43,847 bases of DNA from Parcubacteria group bacterium (GTDB taxonomy: Bacteria > Patescibacteriota > Minisyncoccia > Phycocordibacterales > Phycocordibacteraceae). Positions 3,464-43,027 of the stretch are shown here, piece after piece; the stretch's first letter is position 1; the number at the start of each line of letters is the position of its first letter. The stretch lies in NCBI GenBank assembly GCA_028286945.1, contig JAQBQR010000033.1, positions 1 through 43,847 of the forward strand, given 5' to 3'. The notes below the pieces were generated by a model that was given only the letters and a program-made list of their open reading frames with translations, searched no databases and was not told where the DNA came from. Both the position numbers and the translations under genes were made by a program.

Positions 3464-3570
3464 GGCAGAAAGATTAGCGCCTATAACTCTCTAAGTGTAG
3501 CAGGTGCTTGGTTAGTAGCCCGATGTTGCTGTTTTAGCTATTTAGCCCTAAAATACTCAAGTTCACACAT

Positions 3571-3642
3571 TCCCCGGTAGCTCAGCGGTAGAGCAATCGA
3601 CTGTTAATCGATTGGTCGCAGGTTCGATCCCTGCCCGGGGAG
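3571..3642 (+). tRNA. tRNA-Asn (anticodon GTT), no encoded CCA
   Basis: Acceptor TCCCCGG/CCGGGGA, anticodon arm ATCGA-CTGTTAA-TCGAT, T arm GCAGG-TTCGATC-CCTGC. Confidence 0.95.
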
Positions 3643-5115
3643 CCCAGAAGGACAGTTAGCCAATTCCAAGACAGTATTGAATGGAGAACGCAAGGTAAAC
3701 CCTAGCGTTTTTCCGTCTACAGTCGGGTTCTGAAGTAGATAGTTCAAAAGCATTCGTTTTTCGTAGGGTTCAGAACTTTCAAAGATACTGCCCACTCGAC
3801 GACTGATAGAAAACACACGGGATACAGTGAGTTTGTAGTCATGGTCGGCTTTTGTATGCTCTTCAGCTTCAAGGTCGAGGCGGTACTGCTGGTCTTTAAA
3901 CTGTTGCAGCTTTTTGTCGTACTCGTCCTTAGTAATACTCTTGTCGAGCAGAAGGTCCATGAGCGCATCAATGCGATTCTGAACGCGGTCGTATTCTGCA
4001 CGAATACGTGCAAGCTCTTTTTTGTGGTAAACGACTTCGCTCTCATTGTTTGTTCGAAGCTCGTCCGTAAGGCGTTCCTCTACGTTGGTTGGGATTGCTG
4101 CAAAGGCCTCGAATACGTCCATGAGAGGCTTCAGGAGGTCCTTTTCGGGCACATAGATGCGCTTACAAATACGCTTGGCGTTCGTGCACGAGTAATAGAT
4201 AAAGCGGCCCTTCTTCTTCTCCGGGGTCATTACGCAGCCACAGTTTTTGCAATGTAGTAGGCCTTTGAAAATAAACTCCTCGGATAGCGGCTTCCATGTA
4301 GCATTGGAACGCTTACGAGCCACAGCCTGACAGCGCTCATAAAGCTCCAATGTGATGATGCACGGGTAATGATGCGGGTACGTCCCGTATTTCTTTGAAC
4401 GAGCGACACCGTAATAAAACGGGTCTTTTAGGACTAGGTCGATGTTGCTTCGAGAAAGTACGTTCCCATCTACGCTTCGAAGTCCCAGCTTTGTTATTTC
4501 CGTATGTAATGTCGTCAACGAGTAGTTGCCTGATGCGTAGAGTATGAAAATACGCTCTATAAGATGGGCGCGTTCTGGGTCGAGCACGATGTCTTTCTTG
4601 CCGTTCACGTCGAGCGAGTTGATGTATCCGATGCGTGGTTTTCCGTTCCAGTCCCCATTTCGGCGCTTCTGCTCGAAGGCACGCTTCACGTTGTCGCTAA
4701 TAGCATCCGAGTAGTACTTCGCGAGACCCAAGCTCATGCCGAACTGGAACTTCTCGACGGCTGACATGGATGGACCGATTATCTGGCCCTCTGACGTGAA
4801 GTGCAGTTCAATCTGGTCGTTGACTGCCATTTCGTACAGAAGCGAGACGCGCTTATCGAAAACGTTTCGCGAAAGACGGTCTACCTTATCGAAGCAGACT
4901 GCGAGTTTTATCTTGCTTTCCTGTATATAGCGTACAACTTCATCGAACGTATCACGCTTGGTCTTATATGCGCTTTCATCGAAACTAAACTCTTTGTCTA
5001 TCTCCAAGCTCTTACGGGAGCAGTACGATTTAAGACGCTCAGCCTGTGCGGGAAGTGAGTTCCCGGCGTCCCTCTGTTCTTCTGTAGATACTCTCGCAAC
5101 TATAACTGCCTTCAT
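3604..5115 (-). CDS. Large serine recombinase (site-specific integrase)
   Basis: N-terminal 'AVIVARVSTEEQRDAGNSLPAQ', Zn ribbon 'CKNCGCVMTPEKKKGRFIYYSCTNAKRIC', C-terminal coiled coil; last 12 codons plus stop lie antisense in the tRNA. Confidence 0.93.
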   Translation of the reverse strand: MKAVIVARVSTEEQRDAGNSLPAQAERLKSYCSRKSLEIDKEFSFDESAYKTKRDTFDEVVRYIQESKIKLAVCFDKVDRLSRNVFDKRVSLLYEMAVNDQIELHFTSEGQIIGPSMSAVEKFQFGMSLGLAKYYSDAISDNVKRAFEQKRRNGDWNGKPRIGYINSLDVNGKKDIVLDPERAHLIERIFILYASGNYSLTTLHTEITKLGLRSVDGNVLSRSNIDLVLKDPFYYGVARSKKYGTYPHHYPCIITLELYERCQAVARKRSNATWKPLSEEFIFKGLLHCKNCGCVMTPEKKKGRFIYYSCTNAKRICKRIYVPEKDLLKPLMDVFEAFAAIPTNVEERLTDELRTNNESEVVYHKKELARIRAEYDRVQNRIDALMDLLLDKSITKDEYDKKLQQFKDQQYRLDLEAEEHTKADHDYKLTVSRVFSISRRVGSIFESSEPYEKRMLLNYLLQNPTVDGKTLGFTLRSPFNTVLELANCPSGLPGQGSNLRPID

Positions 5116-9084: not shown

Positions 9085-9215
9085 GGGAGCCAAATAAAAA
9101 CGCCCAGCAATGGGTGTTTTTATTTGGCTCCCTGCAAAGAAGCCTGGGAGGCTTCTTTGCAGGGATCGAAAACCTTGTGAGCATTTTCTGAGTCATTGAA
9201 GAAAATCCACAAGGT
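9085..9215. repeat. Three consecutive inverted repeats (hairpin cluster)
   Basis: GGGAGCCAAATAAAAAC..GTTTTTATTTGGCTCCC; CCCTGCAAAGAAGCC..GGCTTCTTTGCAGGG (shares CCC with the first); ACCTTGTG..CACAAGGT. Confidence 0.85.
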
Positions 9216-16050: not shown

Positions 16051-17460
16051 ATGGATATCCTTACCCTTTCACGCATACAATTCGGCGGCACCGCTGCCTT
16101 TCATATTTTGTGGCCACTTTTGTCCATTGGACTCGGCTTGTATTTATTCGTGCTTGAAGCCATGTGGCTCAAGACAAAAAATGATGCGTATTATCGTCAG
16201 CTTCGTTTCTGGGTGAAGATCTTCGTGCTGACGTTCGTTATGGGCACCGCTTCTGGTATTCCGCTTGAGTTTGAATTTGGTACGAACTGGGCGGCATTTT
16301 CAAATGCCGCTGGCGATTTCTTTGGAAATATCCTTGGTTTTGAATCCACCGTTGCCTTTGCGCTTGAGGCAGCCTTCTTAGGAATCTTCGCCTTTGGGTG
16401 GAAGCGCGTACGCCCAGGAGTTCATTTATTTGCAAATGCGATGGTGGCTTTCGGCGCTACGCTCTCTGCGTTTTGGATCATGGTCGCTAACTCATGGATG
16501 CAAATTCCCACGGGTATTACGGTAGAAGGAACTAAGATCATTGTTACGGATTATATGGTTGCCATATTTAATCCGGGCTCGCTCATTAGCTTTGCGCACA
16601 TGGAGGTGGCAAGTATTGAAACGACACTCTTTTTTATCATGGGTATCTCCGCTGCAGCCATTTTGTTTGCAAAGGATGAAGTGAGAAAGAAATTCTTTTT
16701 GCAGTCATTTCGCATTGCACTCGCTATTGCAGTCATCGTCACCCCTCTCCAGCTTTTCTTAGGCGATGTCTCTGGACAGGAAGTGGCAAAGTATCAACCA
16801 GAAAAACTAGCAGCGCTTGAAATGCATTGGGATACAAATCCTGCAGGGACAGGTGCAGGATATTCATTGCTAGCGTGGCCTTCTATGGAAGGTGGTCACA
16901 ACACCTTTGATGTACAGATTCCTAACGGACTCTCGCTCATCACTACGCACTCAATGACCGGTCAGGTGAAGGGATTAAACGAATATCGTCCTGAAGACCG
17001 CCCAACTCCTATAAACAGCATCCTTACCTTCTATTCATTCCGCCTCATGGTGCTTTGCGGCATCACTATGTTCCTTCTCATGCTCGCGGGTATGTTGTAT
17101 TGGAAGAAGGGATGGCTCTCTTCAGAGTCAGTGCAAAACCATCGTGCATTCTGGTGGCTCTGGGTCATCGCTATACCTACAGGATTTGTCGCAACGGAAG
17201 CAGGATGGATGGTACGCGAAATAGGACGTCAGCCATGGGTGGTGTATCACCTGCTGCGTACGAGCCAGGGAATTTCTCCAAACCTTTCTGTAGCTCCCGT
17301 GTTTACCACCACTATTCTCTTTGGACTGTTCTACTTCGTAGCTATCGCTGGCTTTATTTACTTCACCCATCGCATTGTGCGGAAAGGTCCTGATCTGACG
17401 AGTCCGGTGCTCAGATATGTGCCACGCGCCAAGAAAGAGAAATTGGAAACAACGCTATGA
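16051..17460 (+). CDS. cydA: Cytochrome bd-type quinol oxidase subunit I
   Basis: 'SRIQFGGTAAFHILWPLLSIGL', 'LISFAHMEVASIETT', 'GQEVAKYQPEKLAALE', 'GWMVREIGRQPWVVY'. Confidence 0.95.
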   Translation: MDILTLSRIQFGGTAAFHILWPLLSIGLGLYLFVLEAMWLKTKNDAYYRQLRFWVKIFVLTFVMGTASGIPLEFEFGTNWAAFSNAAGDFFGNILGFESTVAFALEAAFLGIFAFGWKRVRPGVHLFANAMVAFGATLSAFWIMVANSWMQIPTGITVEGTKIIVTDYMVAIFNPGSLISFAHMEVASIETTLFFIMGISAAAILFAKDEVRKKFFLQSFRIALAIAVIVTPLQLFLGDVSGQEVAKYQPEKLAALEMHWDTNPAGTGAGYSLLAWPSMEGGHNTFDVQIPNGLSLITTHSMTGQVKGLNEYRPEDRPTPINSILTFYSFRLMVLCGITMFLLMLAGMLYWKKGWLSSESVQNHRAFWWLWVIAIPTGFVATEAGWMVREIGRQPWVVYHLLRTSQGISPNLSVAPVFTTTILFGLFYFVAIAGFIYFTHRIVRKGPDLTSPVLRYVPRAKKEKLETTL

Positions 17461-18299
17461 TACTCGATCTAATTTCACTTATTCATACGTACTTCCAACA
17501 GGACTGGCTCCCTGCACTTTGGTTCTTCACGGTTGCCCTTGAGATTGGTCTATACCTTATGCTCGATGGCGCTGACTTAGGCATTGGAATTCTTTCACTC
17601 TTCACTCGTACAGAAAATAATCGAGGGATTATGATGCAGGTCATTGGGCCCATCTGGGACGCAAACGAGACCTGGCTTGTTGTGGCCGCAGGAACGCTTT
17701 TTGGAGCATTTCCACTCGCGTACGGAATTATTCTAAGCGCACTCTATATTCCGGTGATGATATTGATCTTTGGGCTTATCCTGCGAGCTGTTTCCTTTGA
17801 GTTCTATCATTTTGCTAAGCGTAAGCATATCTGGGGACGCCTCTTTGGAATTGGAAGCCTCATGGCTGCGGTGGGTCAGGGATTCCTGGCGGGAGGCTTG
17901 GTGTCAGGCATCGTCATCTCTAACGATATGTTCGCAGGAGGTTCGTTTGATTGGGCTACGCCCATCGCCTGCGGCATTACTGTCAGCATCGTCATTGCGT
18001 ACCTTATTACAGGACGTGCCTACCTTCTGCGACGCATGACCACTTCAGGGGCACTGACACGCCTTATATACCCTTCTGCACTTGCGGTGCTCGCTGTGGC
18101 CTTTGGCACGGTTACCATCATTCTTTTGCCGAACATCGTACCTCCGAGCATCACCATATATACAGCAGCAGCGTCTCATAAGACGCTGGTTTTCATGCTG
18201 TACGGCATAGGGCCGCTCATCCCTATAATCTTTGCCTACAATATTTATTTGTATCGAGTGTTTAGTGACGAACGTGCAGACGACCGCTACGAAGTGTAA
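17457..18299 (+). CDS. cydB: Cytochrome bd-type quinol oxidase subunit II
   Basis: 'LMLDGADLGIGILSLF', 'GPIWDANETWLVVAAGTLFGAFPLAYG'; overlaps the cydA stop. Confidence 0.95.
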   Translation: MILDLISLIHTYFQQDWLPALWFFTVALEIGLYLMLDGADLGIGILSLFTRTENNRGIMMQVIGPIWDANETWLVVAAGTLFGAFPLAYGIILSALYIPVMILIFGLILRAVSFEFYHFAKRKHIWGRLFGIGSLMAAVGQGFLAGGLVSGIVISNDMFAGGSFDWATPIACGITVSIVIAYLITGRAYLLRRMTTSGALTRLIYPSALAVLAVAFGTVTIILLPNIVPPSITIYTAAASHKTLVFMLYGIGPLIPIIFAYNIYLYRVFSDERADDRYEV

Positions 18300-29420: not shown

Positions 29421-30284
29421 TTAATAAGCACCATTTACCTTAACTGAGGTATCTCCCGTCTGAACAGAAACATAGCCATCGCGAACAACTACACTTGCAT
29501 CATTTGAAAGCACTTCTGCCACCGAGTGAGATACGCGTACCTGATCTGTTGAAGAGAACGCTCCGTTCGATACTACAATCTGATTACCTGCTTTCGCTGA
29601 GGTGAATTGCTGAGCCACAGAAGCTTTAAGACTTGCCGTATCCTTCGTTGCGAGGAAGCTGTACCACGGAAGCATCACCGATACATTTCCGTTAGCATCA
29701 ACGCTCACGCGTGCGTTTAGGTGCATTGGAATAAAGCCAAAAAGCTTTGCTTGCTGAACATACGCCACTTCAACCTTTTGCGAATTTGTTGAAGCACTCA
29801 CAATGCTTGGACTCGTACTTACAAGAAGAGTGTTGTATGCGTCTACGTCGCTTTGATCTTTTATGTATAGTGAGGGATCTCCTGAAAGCGAAACAATAGT
29901 TTTTGCACTGCCAGAATCAATTCCACTTGAAACAACGGTATGCAGTGTTTGCCCGTTAGAACCAAGCGTTACCGTATTACCTGTGGTGCTTTTGATTATG
30001 ACGCCTGGAGCGTGTACCATCACGTTCGTATTTCCAGACGCATTTCCACCTTTACTGGTTACGCCTGTCGTTACATTCACACCTCCTGTATGAATATCAA
30101 CGCCTGTGTCCGTTACGGTACCAACCCCTTCAACGCTTACATTTGTTGAGTTGTCTCCAGCGTGCACTGAAACGCCAGGCACGTTCACATCTACGTTGTA
30201 TCCTTGCGCTAATGCGCTTTGAGCGATACCGGTAAGTGCAAATGCCGCACCAAGGGATAAGGTTGCTGTCCTAAGAATGTTCAT
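29421..30284 (-). CDS. Secreted protein with a repetitive Val/Gly/Thr-rich region
   Basis: Signal peptide 'MNILRTATLSLGAAFALTGIAQSALAQ'. Confidence 0.7.
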   Translation of the reverse strand: MNILRTATLSLGAAFALTGIAQSALAQGYNVDVNVPGVSVHAGDNSTNVSVEGVGTVTDTGVDIHTGGVNVTTGVTSKGGNASGNTNVMVHAPGVIIKSTTGNTVTLGSNGQTLHTVVSSGIDSGSAKTIVSLSGDPSLYIKDQSDVDAYNTLLVSTSPSIVSASTNSQKVEVAYVQQAKLFGFIPMHLNARVSVDANGNVSVMLPWYSFLATKDTASLKASVAQQFTSAKAGNQIVVSNGAFSSTDQVRVSHSVAEVLSNDASVVVRDGYVSVQTGDTSVKVNGAY

Positions 30285-30361: not shown

Positions 30362-30648
30362 TAAAAAGGAAAGGGCTCGTCATGTTGCTTGCGCAAATGA
30401 CGAGCCCTGAGCATAACCCAAAAGCGGGTTTGCTCCAACTGCAGGATTACCACAAAGCCCTGAGGCAAATGCGAGAAATCGCTGGCAGTATCAAGAGGTG
30501 AATTCGTCCCGTTATTTTTCGGGGACGAAACAGAGCTCCACACAAAGGGATATCCGAACTAAGGAATTAACCGAAACCGGATATCTGACCGTACCCTATC
30601 ACCCACGGGAACCGTGGACGCGTATTGGAGGGCAACCACTTTCGCGCG
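30362..30648 (-). ncRNA. Candidate autonomous structured ncRNA of about 285 nt
   Basis: Minus-strand promoter TTGACA-N17-TAGATT (30654-30682); hairpins CCACGG/CCGTGG, GATATCCG/CGGATATC, TTCGTCCC/GGGACGAA, GCGA/TCGC, GAGCA-AACCC/GGGTT-TGCTC; terminator AGGGCTCGTCAT..ATGACGAGCCCTTTCCTTTTT; no credible ORF. Confidence 0.7.
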
Positions 30649-40051: not shown

Positions 40052-41122
40052 ATGAATTCGCCTCGGTTAACTTCAAGCCTCATGCCGAAGCCTCGCAGCT
40101 CTCGGCCAGGGTCAGCGCGCCCTAAGCGCAAGTTCCCTTTTGTACCGATCATCATATGTATAGTCATTCTTGGAGCTGCAATCTTTTCTTTGCCTCTAAT
40201 TCTGGCAGTGGACGTTCAGCTGGCAAACAAAGCATCTGGTACCGGAGTTCCCTTTACCGTAACGGTTAATCCAGCACTTAAGACCATTCACACAGATCCT
40301 CAGGTAGAGGCATTGCTGGCGACTCCTCCCACTCAGCTCCCTGCAGCCGCAGGCTTCCTTACAAAATTGTTCCAATACGCTGCACTTAAGGTCGCTTCGC
40401 TCCCGATATATCAGCAACTTGCCGCAGCTGCCGGGGCGCCGAGTCTTTTCGTATCCGTTTCTGCAGGCACTCGTCAGGAACAAGTTGCACAGTCTTTTGG
40501 TACTCAGCTAGGGTGGAGTGCAAAACAACGCACACAGTTCATTACAGAATCAAAAGCGCTTGAGCCTGATCTTCCTCAAGGCAGCACCGTACCTGGTATT
40601 TATTTCGCAAGCATTAGTGATCCGAAAGATGTTGCCACACTCGTACATGACCGTTTCGATTCTGAAATTCTTTCGCGATACAGCAGCAGCACCGAAGCAC
40701 AGGTTCCTTTAAGCGACGCCATGACCATTGCATCTCTCATCCAGCGCGAAGCAGGCAGCTGGGATGATATGCGCATGATCTCCGGTATTATCTGGAATCG
40801 TTTGTTCATTGGGATGAAGCTTCAGGTGGATGCAACGCTTCAATACGCAGAAGCGAGCAAGGCTTCCGGAACAACGGGGTGGTGGCCTTCTGTTGAGCCA
40901 AAGGATAAATATATTAAGTCCGCATACAACACGTACCAGAATGCCGGTCTTCCTCCTGCACCAATTGCGAATCCATCCATCGCGGCGGTGGTTGCTGCAC
41001 TAAATCCGAAAAAGACTGACTGTCTCTTCTATTTCCACGATTCCCATAGCGTATTCCATTGTTCAAAGACGTACGCGGAACACGTGGCACTTTTGAAGAA
41101 GTATTACGGTCAGGGTAAATAG
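40052..41122 (+). CDS. mltG: Endolytic murein transglycosylase MltG-like
   Basis: 'DAMTIASLIQREAGSWDDMRMISGIIWNRLFIGMKLQVDATLQYA', 'YNTYQNAGLPPAPIANPSIAAVVAALNPKKTDCLFYFHD'. Confidence 0.93.
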   Translation: MNSPRLTSSLMPKPRSSRPGSARPKRKFPFVPIIICIVILGAAIFSLPLILAVDVQLANKASGTGVPFTVTVNPALKTIHTDPQVEALLATPPTQLPAAAGFLTKLFQYAALKVASLPIYQQLAAAAGAPSLFVSVSAGTRQEQVAQSFGTQLGWSAKQRTQFITESKALEPDLPQGSTVPGIYFASISDPKDVATLVHDRFDSEILSRYSSSTEAQVPLSDAMTIASLIQREAGSWDDMRMISGIIWNRLFIGMKLQVDATLQYAEASKASGTTGWWPSVEPKDKYIKSAYNTYQNAGLPPAPIANPSIAAVVAALNPKKTDCLFYFHDSHSVFHCSKTYAEHVALLKKYYGQGK

Positions 41123-41134
41123 GCTTCAGACAAA

Positions 41135-41165
41135 TAAAACGAATCTCCTCACGGGGGAGGAGATC
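41135..41165 (-). terminator. Terminator for the minus-strand microprotein gene
   Basis: ATCTCCTCC-CCCGT-GAGGAGAT then TCGTTTTATTT on the minus strand. Confidence 0.75.
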
Positions 41166-41194
41166 CAGGTGGCGGGAGTTTAAGCCCGCTGAAT

Positions 41195-41359
41195 TCAGCG
41201 CATGCTGTCCAGCACCTTAGCCAAACAGTCTGGGCATGTGGCGGTTAAACGACCTCCCGAACTGTGGCCTTTAGGCCAGGTTTTTGAATTTTCTCTCAGG
41301 AGTCCGCACAGCGTTATGAGGCCATTGTCCGCTGTTCTTGATCCTCGCAGGATATGAAT
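41195..41359 (-). CDS. Zn-binding-like microprotein (54 aa, GTG start)
   Basis: MGPKPLIHILRGSRTADNGLITLCGLLRENSKTWPKGHSSGGRLTATCPDCLAKVLDSMR numbered from an upstream GTG near 41377 in the track; H..LCG..CPDC pattern; GAGAGG upstream; downstream terminator. Exact start is uncertain between 41359 and 41377. Confidence 0.55.
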   Translation of the reverse strand: MHILRGSRTADNGLITLCGLLRENSKTWPKGHSSGGRLTATCPDCLAKVLDSMR

Positions 41360-41467
41360 GAGCGGTTTTGGGCCCACGTGTGGTTCCTCTCAAGAAGGAT
41401 GACAGAACCTTTGCAGAGTACGCCTAGTAGCCGCGCCTTACAAGAAAGATACGCATTCTTGACAAAA

Positions 41468-41503
41468 GTTAGTTCACGGGGCATGCTAATTTCGTGAACT
41501 AAC
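41468..41503. promoter_or_regulatory. 11-bp perfect dyad in a divergent intergenic region
   Basis: GTTAGTTCACG (41468-41478) / CGTGAACTAAC (41493-41503), right after TTGACA at 41459-41464. Confidence 0.7.
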
Positions 41504-41542
41504 GGATGATCGTTGATTTCTCCAGGAGTGAAAGGCCTGCTC

Positions 41543-41884
41543 ATGTTCAAGCACATTCTCACAGTCCTCGCCTACCTGCTGATCGCAGGCACGACCTACA
41601 TCTGGCTGGTCCGGTTCGAGGCAATGCCTGCGGACTGGGACCACCTTATCAGGACCGTGTCCATTCTGATGATCAGCATGCATGTGATGAAGTTCGATGG
41701 ACGCAACGCGCTGACAATCATCGCCGCGCTCGCGTCCTACTTCACGGCTTGGTGGCTGACCTCTACCCATGGCAGCGATTCGCTCATCTGGGTCTTTACC
41801 CTCGCAGCGTTTTCACTGCTCGTCATCGCCATCGCGCGGTGGCTGCCGGCGCCTCGAGAAACCTTTGAGCCGGCGGAGAGATAG
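41543..41884 (+). CDS. Small multi-TM membrane protein of atypical composition
   Basis: MFKHILTVLAYLLIAGTTYIWLVRF...; GC-rich codons; strong terminator downstream. Confidence 0.7.
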   Translation: MFKHILTVLAYLLIAGTTYIWLVRFEAMPADWDHLIRTVSILMISMHVMKFDGRNALTIIAALASYFTAWWLTSTHGSDSLIWVFTLAAFSLLVIAIARWLPAPRETFEPAER

Positions 41885-41889
41885 CCCAC

Positions 41890-41940
41890 GACCCGTTCGA
41901 CAGAAAGCCCGTCTCGGCTTTCGTCGAACGGGTCTTTCTG
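41890..41940 (+). terminator. Long terminator hairpin
   Basis: GACCCGTTCGACaGAAAGCC..GGCTTTCgTCGAACGGGTC then TTTCTG. Confidence 0.85.
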
Positions 41941-41976
41941 TAAAAGCTGACCTATCAGGCGCAGAGATTACAAGGA

Positions 41977-42873
41977 TTATTGAAGAGGGCCAAATCCCTC
42001 GCTCTGGAGACGAGCACTTTCAAGCGCTTTGAACTTTTCATGGAATGCTCCGGGAATCCTTCTATACACCGACAGAACGGCATCCATCTTGCTTGAGGTA
42101 TCTATTGTTCCTGAACCAATAGTGTTATCGAAAAACTCCTGTGCAAGTGCTTCCTGTGCTGATGGATCAAGACTAAGAATTTGATCACGAATTTCGAATC
42201 CCTTACCGCCGTCCCACTTTCCTTCTACAAGTCCCTCCATAAGAGCGTTGCTCAACTCTGGATGCGCTTCAGATTTCTGTTCGTTATTGAGTGGTATTGG
42301 TTCTCCTTGTTCAGCTGAATTTCCCGCTAATCTTTTCTTTACTTCGAGCTGCGCTGCGGTTGTCTGTACTGCAGCTTTTACACCTTCTAGGTAGCGAATC
42401 TGAGTCGCAAAAGCATTTTGTGTTTCCTGCGCAGCGTTTGCCTTGTTCCAGCCAGTTGTTGGATCATTTTCTCCATCTTCTGAAATTCGTTCGAATACTT
42501 TCTTTGCGTCTTCAAGACCGTCAGGAATACTTTCTTTTATTCGATCTCCAGTATCTGAGACTATGTCCATGTAGCTATATGCAAAGATAGTATTCTTTGC
42601 ATCAAGTTTGGCTAGATTTTCTGCAAGGAGTTTTGCACCTTCTCCTTCTTTGATATCTGGATTTGCTTGAATCTCCTTTTGTATTGATTCCACGAGTTCA
42701 GTTGCCTGCGTTGAATATGCCTCTGCTTCAGCTTCTGGGAACGTCATTTCTTCTGCTGCAGTTTCGGCAACTTCAGGTGCAACAGCTGTCGGGGATGTTT
42801 CTCTTGTAGCCATGTCTAAATAGCTAGTATCAACAGCTGGTTCCTGGTCTCTTTTGTCTGGGCCTTCGTGCAT
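41977..42873 (-). CDS. Hypothetical protein (ORF can extend to 42954)
   Basis: Long charged ORF; MHEGPDKRDQEPAVDTSYLD chosen as likely start. Confidence 0.65.
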   Translation of the reverse strand: MHEGPDKRDQEPAVDTSYLDMATRETSPTAVAPEVAETAAEEMTFPEAEAEAYSTQATELVESIQKEIQANPDIKEGEGAKLLAENLAKLDAKNTIFAYSYMDIVSDTGDRIKESIPDGLEDAKKVFERISEDGENDPTTGWNKANAAQETQNAFATQIRYLEGVKAAVQTTAAQLEVKKRLAGNSAEQGEPIPLNNEQKSEAHPELSNALMEGLVEGKWDGGKGFEIRDQILSLDPSAQEALAQEFFDNTIGSGTIDTSSKMDAVLSVYRRIPGAFHEKFKALESARLQSEGFGPLQ

Positions 42874-43027
42874 AGTCAAGATGAAATTTAGATAAAATAT
42901 AACTGTGTGTATTGTACCAAAGATTAAAACTAGGAAACGTAACCCTGCAGACATTTACAAATCCTTTCTCTATGGTACTTTTCCTTTGGGAATGTTCCCA
43001 AGATTCTATTTGCCTGGGAGGGCAATT

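Follow-up and report, generated by a model that had tools for sequence, protein, structure and literature searches.

A candidate lineage-specific accessory segment behind mltG in a Parcubacteria group bacterium

What stands directly behind mltG in this small-genome bacterium, and does it amount to a functional unit? The window, i.e. the whole stretch of DNA analysed (43,847 nt; assembly GCA_028286945.1, contig JAQBQR010000033.1), holds mltG at 40052-41122, assigned to the YceG family by a family-library match. Directly behind it come two ORFs that face away from each other, with a dyad in the 165 nt of intergenic DNA between them and one strong hairpin within about 50 nt 3′ of each. A preliminary description had seen there a self-contained regulated unit of foreign style, in which the genes of a zinc-like microprotein and of a membrane protein surround an operator or leader hairpin. 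The anatomy that it proposed is real, as outward ORFs, terminators, TTGACA and dyad were all recovered in the sequence (Table 1). As for what this anatomy stands for, we favour, with middling confidence, a lineage-specific accessory segment obtained by horizontal transfer, likely an ordinary, recently gained orphan.

Table 1. Sequence features of the segment behind mltG, with their positions in the window
Feature	Position	Strand	Basis
Intrinsic terminator behind the minus ORF; stem of 11 bp, followed by TTTTATTTGT	41140-41167	-	Terminator scan and fold, z -3.7
Possible 60-aa Cys/His microprotein, GTG start, H..LCG..TCPDC	41195-41377	-	ORF, codon test, shuffles; no homologue
GAGAGG, Shine-Dalgarno-like, ends 8 nt before the GTG	41386-41391	-	Sequence
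TTGACA (read as TTGTCA on the minus strand), a -35 that both ORFs may share, lacking a good -10	41459-41464	+	Sequence, promoter scan
Perfect dyad GTTAGTTCACG-N14-CGTGAACTAAC	41468-41503	both	Inverted-repeat search, shuffles; unique among 93 genus genomes
Small membrane protein, 113 aa, four hydrophobic segments, GC3 0.79	41543-41884	+	ORF, codon usage, hydrophobicity
Intrinsic terminator of the plus ORF, then TTTCTG	about 41890-41937	+	Inverted repeat and fold, z -7.2

The segment (about 41123-41945, an insert of some 0.8 kb) begins where DNA resemblance to the closest relative stops. With this relative, whose mltG is 68% identical, the shared DNA reaches no further than 41123, a single base beyond the mltG stop codon. 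The 3′ flanks of mltG differ among the dozen relatives listed, several carrying a small membrane protein pair and others other genes. An apparent inversion of mltG in relatives was rejected, minus-strand loci not having been reoriented. The gene that adjoins the segment on its other side (41977-42954, 325 aa) has a low GC3 (0.31), and its C-terminal part is common to only two other genomes of the genus. As this neighbour is itself rare in the genus, the whole stretch around the segment has to be seen as variable. The segment may also be an assembly error or a chimera, against which it can be said that its mltG side is clearly of the genus and that the gene beyond its other end has weak relatives there. 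Further away, two adjacent genes at 16051-18299 resemble, by eye, subunits of a cytochrome bd oxidase, unusual for a genome of about 0.7 Mb.

Absence from close relatives, a first mark of an accessory segment, is found throughout: neither protein has a match in 58 relatives or in the 29 mltG 3′ flanks searched, and none of the other 92 genomes of the genus contains the DNA of the segment, for which a search of E. coli was negative as well. Nor was either protein matched in 366 genomes of the order, in plasmids, in phages or in viral contigs, so that the conservation of the microprotein, which the preliminary description had made a test of its proposal, did not emerge. In 379 genomes of the phylum nothing rose beyond chance level, the weak protein matches having E values of 0.001-0.01 per genome over 380 genomes, which is what chance provides, and several of them containing stop codons (the phylum and order sets, of about 380 and 367 genomes, overlap in part). 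A shallow scan of GTDB contigs, with a reach limited to close relatives, did not find the plus protein. Neither protein was matched credibly by the family and defence models of Pfam, PHROGs, NCBIfam and PADLOC, a sequence search of the PDB gave no match, and a fold search of PDB and viral structures, made with a weak model, returned nothing below E 0.5. The best phage match to the microprotein, from a Streptomyces phage (E 0.8), was discarded, as it lies inside a serine integrase and does not have the cysteine spacing. We found nothing specific in the literature.

A donor was likewise not found in phages, plasmids, viral contigs or E. coli, scans outside the phylum reaching close relatives only, and neither a mobile-gene signature nor a flanking duplication was seen at the segment. 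As neither donor nor homologue came to light, the case for horizontal acquisition is one of composition and absence. Elsewhere in the window, a tRNA-Asn gene (3570-3646) has its end overlapped by a serine recombinase gene (3604-5115, minus strand), in the manner of an integration site, and orphan-like genes come after the recombinase.

Composition unlike that of the host, a second mark of an accessory segment, is seen in the plus gene, the region of the minus ORF not being deviant. The GC3 of the plus ORF lies outside the range of 15 other genes of the window (0.79 against 0.31-0.57), and it is on this account that the gene looks foreign, as had been proposed. Measured with the window's own codon usage, it scores 3.6 z units above shuffled sequence (mltG reaches 7.8 and the next gene 8.6, both being among the genes used to build the usage table), as would be expected of a genuine coding gene that has a foreign codon preference. 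Length alone is no proof of coding in this composition, since an ORF of at least 110 aa turns up in 36% of the region's shuffles. The ORF starts with an ATG at 41543 (alternative starts are GTG at 41528 and TTG at 41513), with GAAAGG 7 nt and AGGAG 14 nt upstream. The structure predicted for its product, which has about four hydrophobic segments, is all-helical at low confidence (pLDDT 67), and by default one would infer that it serves the cell envelope in an accessory role.

Each ORF has its own terminator, with the T run on the proper strand; the hairpin behind the minus ORF resembles a terminator when read on the minus strand but not on the plus, which is why we attribute it to that ORF. 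Promoter elements are less complete. At 17 bp spacing from TTGACA, the best -10 is CATGCT, with 3/6 matches, and scanning the DNA between the two ORFs yielded no promoter with 9 of 12 matches. The dyad that follows has arms (41468-41478 and 41493-41503) of 11 bp that are 100% complementary, with 14 nt between them. It is non-random at this place, a perfect 11-bp inverted repeat with a loop of 3-30 nt appearing in 20 of 20,000 shuffles (0.1%) of the intergenic stretch. Over the whole window, the same kind of repeat arises 0.4 times per shuffle, and the real sequence holds several other perfect inverted repeats of at least 11 bp, some of them terminators, so that repeats of this class are nothing out of the ordinary. 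The dyad has a single copy in this genome, is absent from the other 92 genomes of the genus even when three mismatches are allowed, and was not found as an exact pattern in GTDB or viral contigs. Two candidate relatives were rejected: a match of relaxed spacing in one viral contig, which lies in an unrelated repeat region, and the integron attC site (RYYYAAC...GTTRRRY), as the arms here (GTTAGTT...AACTAAC) have the wrong order and bases. A second perfect long-loop dyad, of 12 bp with a 13-nt centre, stands at 30372-30408, some 90 nt upstream of a minus gene that starts at 30284, and two adjoining long hairpins, with arms of 22 and 23 nt and sequence common to both, occupy 9085-9171.

Were the two ORFs a true module, the zinc microprotein would be a regulator or partner acting on the dyad, controlling both itself and the membrane protein. 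The divergent layout, the ribosome-site-like sequences at the starts and the terminator directly after each ORF all speak for such a module, as does the rarity, 0.016 per shuffled region, of an ORF of at least 50 aa that combines an H/C/CxxC motif with a ribosome site. It nevertheless appears unlikely, because no second instance of the pair turned up in the sets searched, the codon score of the minus ORF (z 0.9) is no better than chance, the family libraries recognise no DNA-binding domain in either gene, and the structure model of the microprotein is poor (mean pLDDT 53). A regulator, its operator and its target would also be expected to travel together, yet neither dyad nor pair is conserved with the genes in genus genomes, GTDB or viral contigs. 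Pair and dyad co-occur nowhere else in the sets searched, an outcome which the preliminary description had itself set as refuting its proposal, and functional pairing is therefore unsupported. The precise form of this idea, a novel two-gene unit that places a small membrane protein under the control of a 60-aa zinc microprotein acting through an 11-bp dyad operator, we hold to be very improbable, the role of the microprotein as an operator-binding regulator being pure conjecture. At the other extreme, the membrane-protein gene alone would be real, with a chance minus ORF and a dyad devoid of regulatory role. Small ORFs do abound by chance (4.8 of at least 50 aa per shuffle of the region, with a zinc-like one in 11% of shuffles), and the minus ORF lacks codon bias and homologues; we nonetheless find this quite improbable, as the minus ORF has a fitting terminator as well as a fitting ribosome site and such a dyad is rare by chance. 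Of the minus gene as initially described, then, the zinc-like pattern and GAGAGG stand, whereas codon score and searches do not bear it out: a second gene here is possible, weakly supported, and plausible if its well-placed terminator is counted.

The dyad could alternatively act as RNA, either as a leader hairpin of the membrane-protein gene or, on the minus strand, as a weak terminator. The plus strand can indeed fold across it (14 pairs, including three G-U), and on the minus strand the stem is followed by TTTTG; the z-scores of the leader fold are, however, only -1.5 and -1.6, Rfam gives no match, and a single sequence allows no covariation, which makes this reading doubtful. A role as operator is likewise conjecture.

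We come back to the acquired accessory segment, which would have settled 3′ of mltG, where relatives vary. Its best-supported content would be one horizontally acquired gene, coding for a small polytopic membrane protein and bringing along a leader and an intrinsic terminator of its own. The dyad would overlap the promoter region of this gene and most likely be bound by a dimeric transcription factor whose gene lies elsewhere in the genome, the minus microprotein being a possible second gene. Besides the negative searches for donor, homologue and mobility signature, two features sit badly with this account, the want of a good -10 and a dyad deprived of the second copy that would define a regulon. 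Of the "self-contained regulated unit of foreign style", the foreign plus gene is retained, while evidence for a conserved or regulated unit did not appear.

Known systems offer partial parallels. Divergent regulator-target pairs of the TetR or LacI style share an operator, and the present ORFs resemble them in having a dyad between them, near TTGACA, but differ in having no recognisable helix-turn-helix regulator and in the 14-nt centre of the dyad. Small H..LCG..TC..C proteins, which occur in phages and Actinobacteria, share with the microprotein one histidine and three cysteines, without significant sequence match. The lineage-specific orphan genes that occupy variable slots of small genomes are alike in being short, of unusual composition and without homologues, with neighbours that vary from one relative to the next; the segment differs from them by its divergent pair, its matched terminators and its perfect dyad. 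If the two genes did work together, they would form a compact module of regulator and target in which no known DNA-binding fold takes part. On the present evidence, we may see the segment as one more orphan accessory segment, chiefly an example of how genes turn over behind mltG in a lineage with small genomes.
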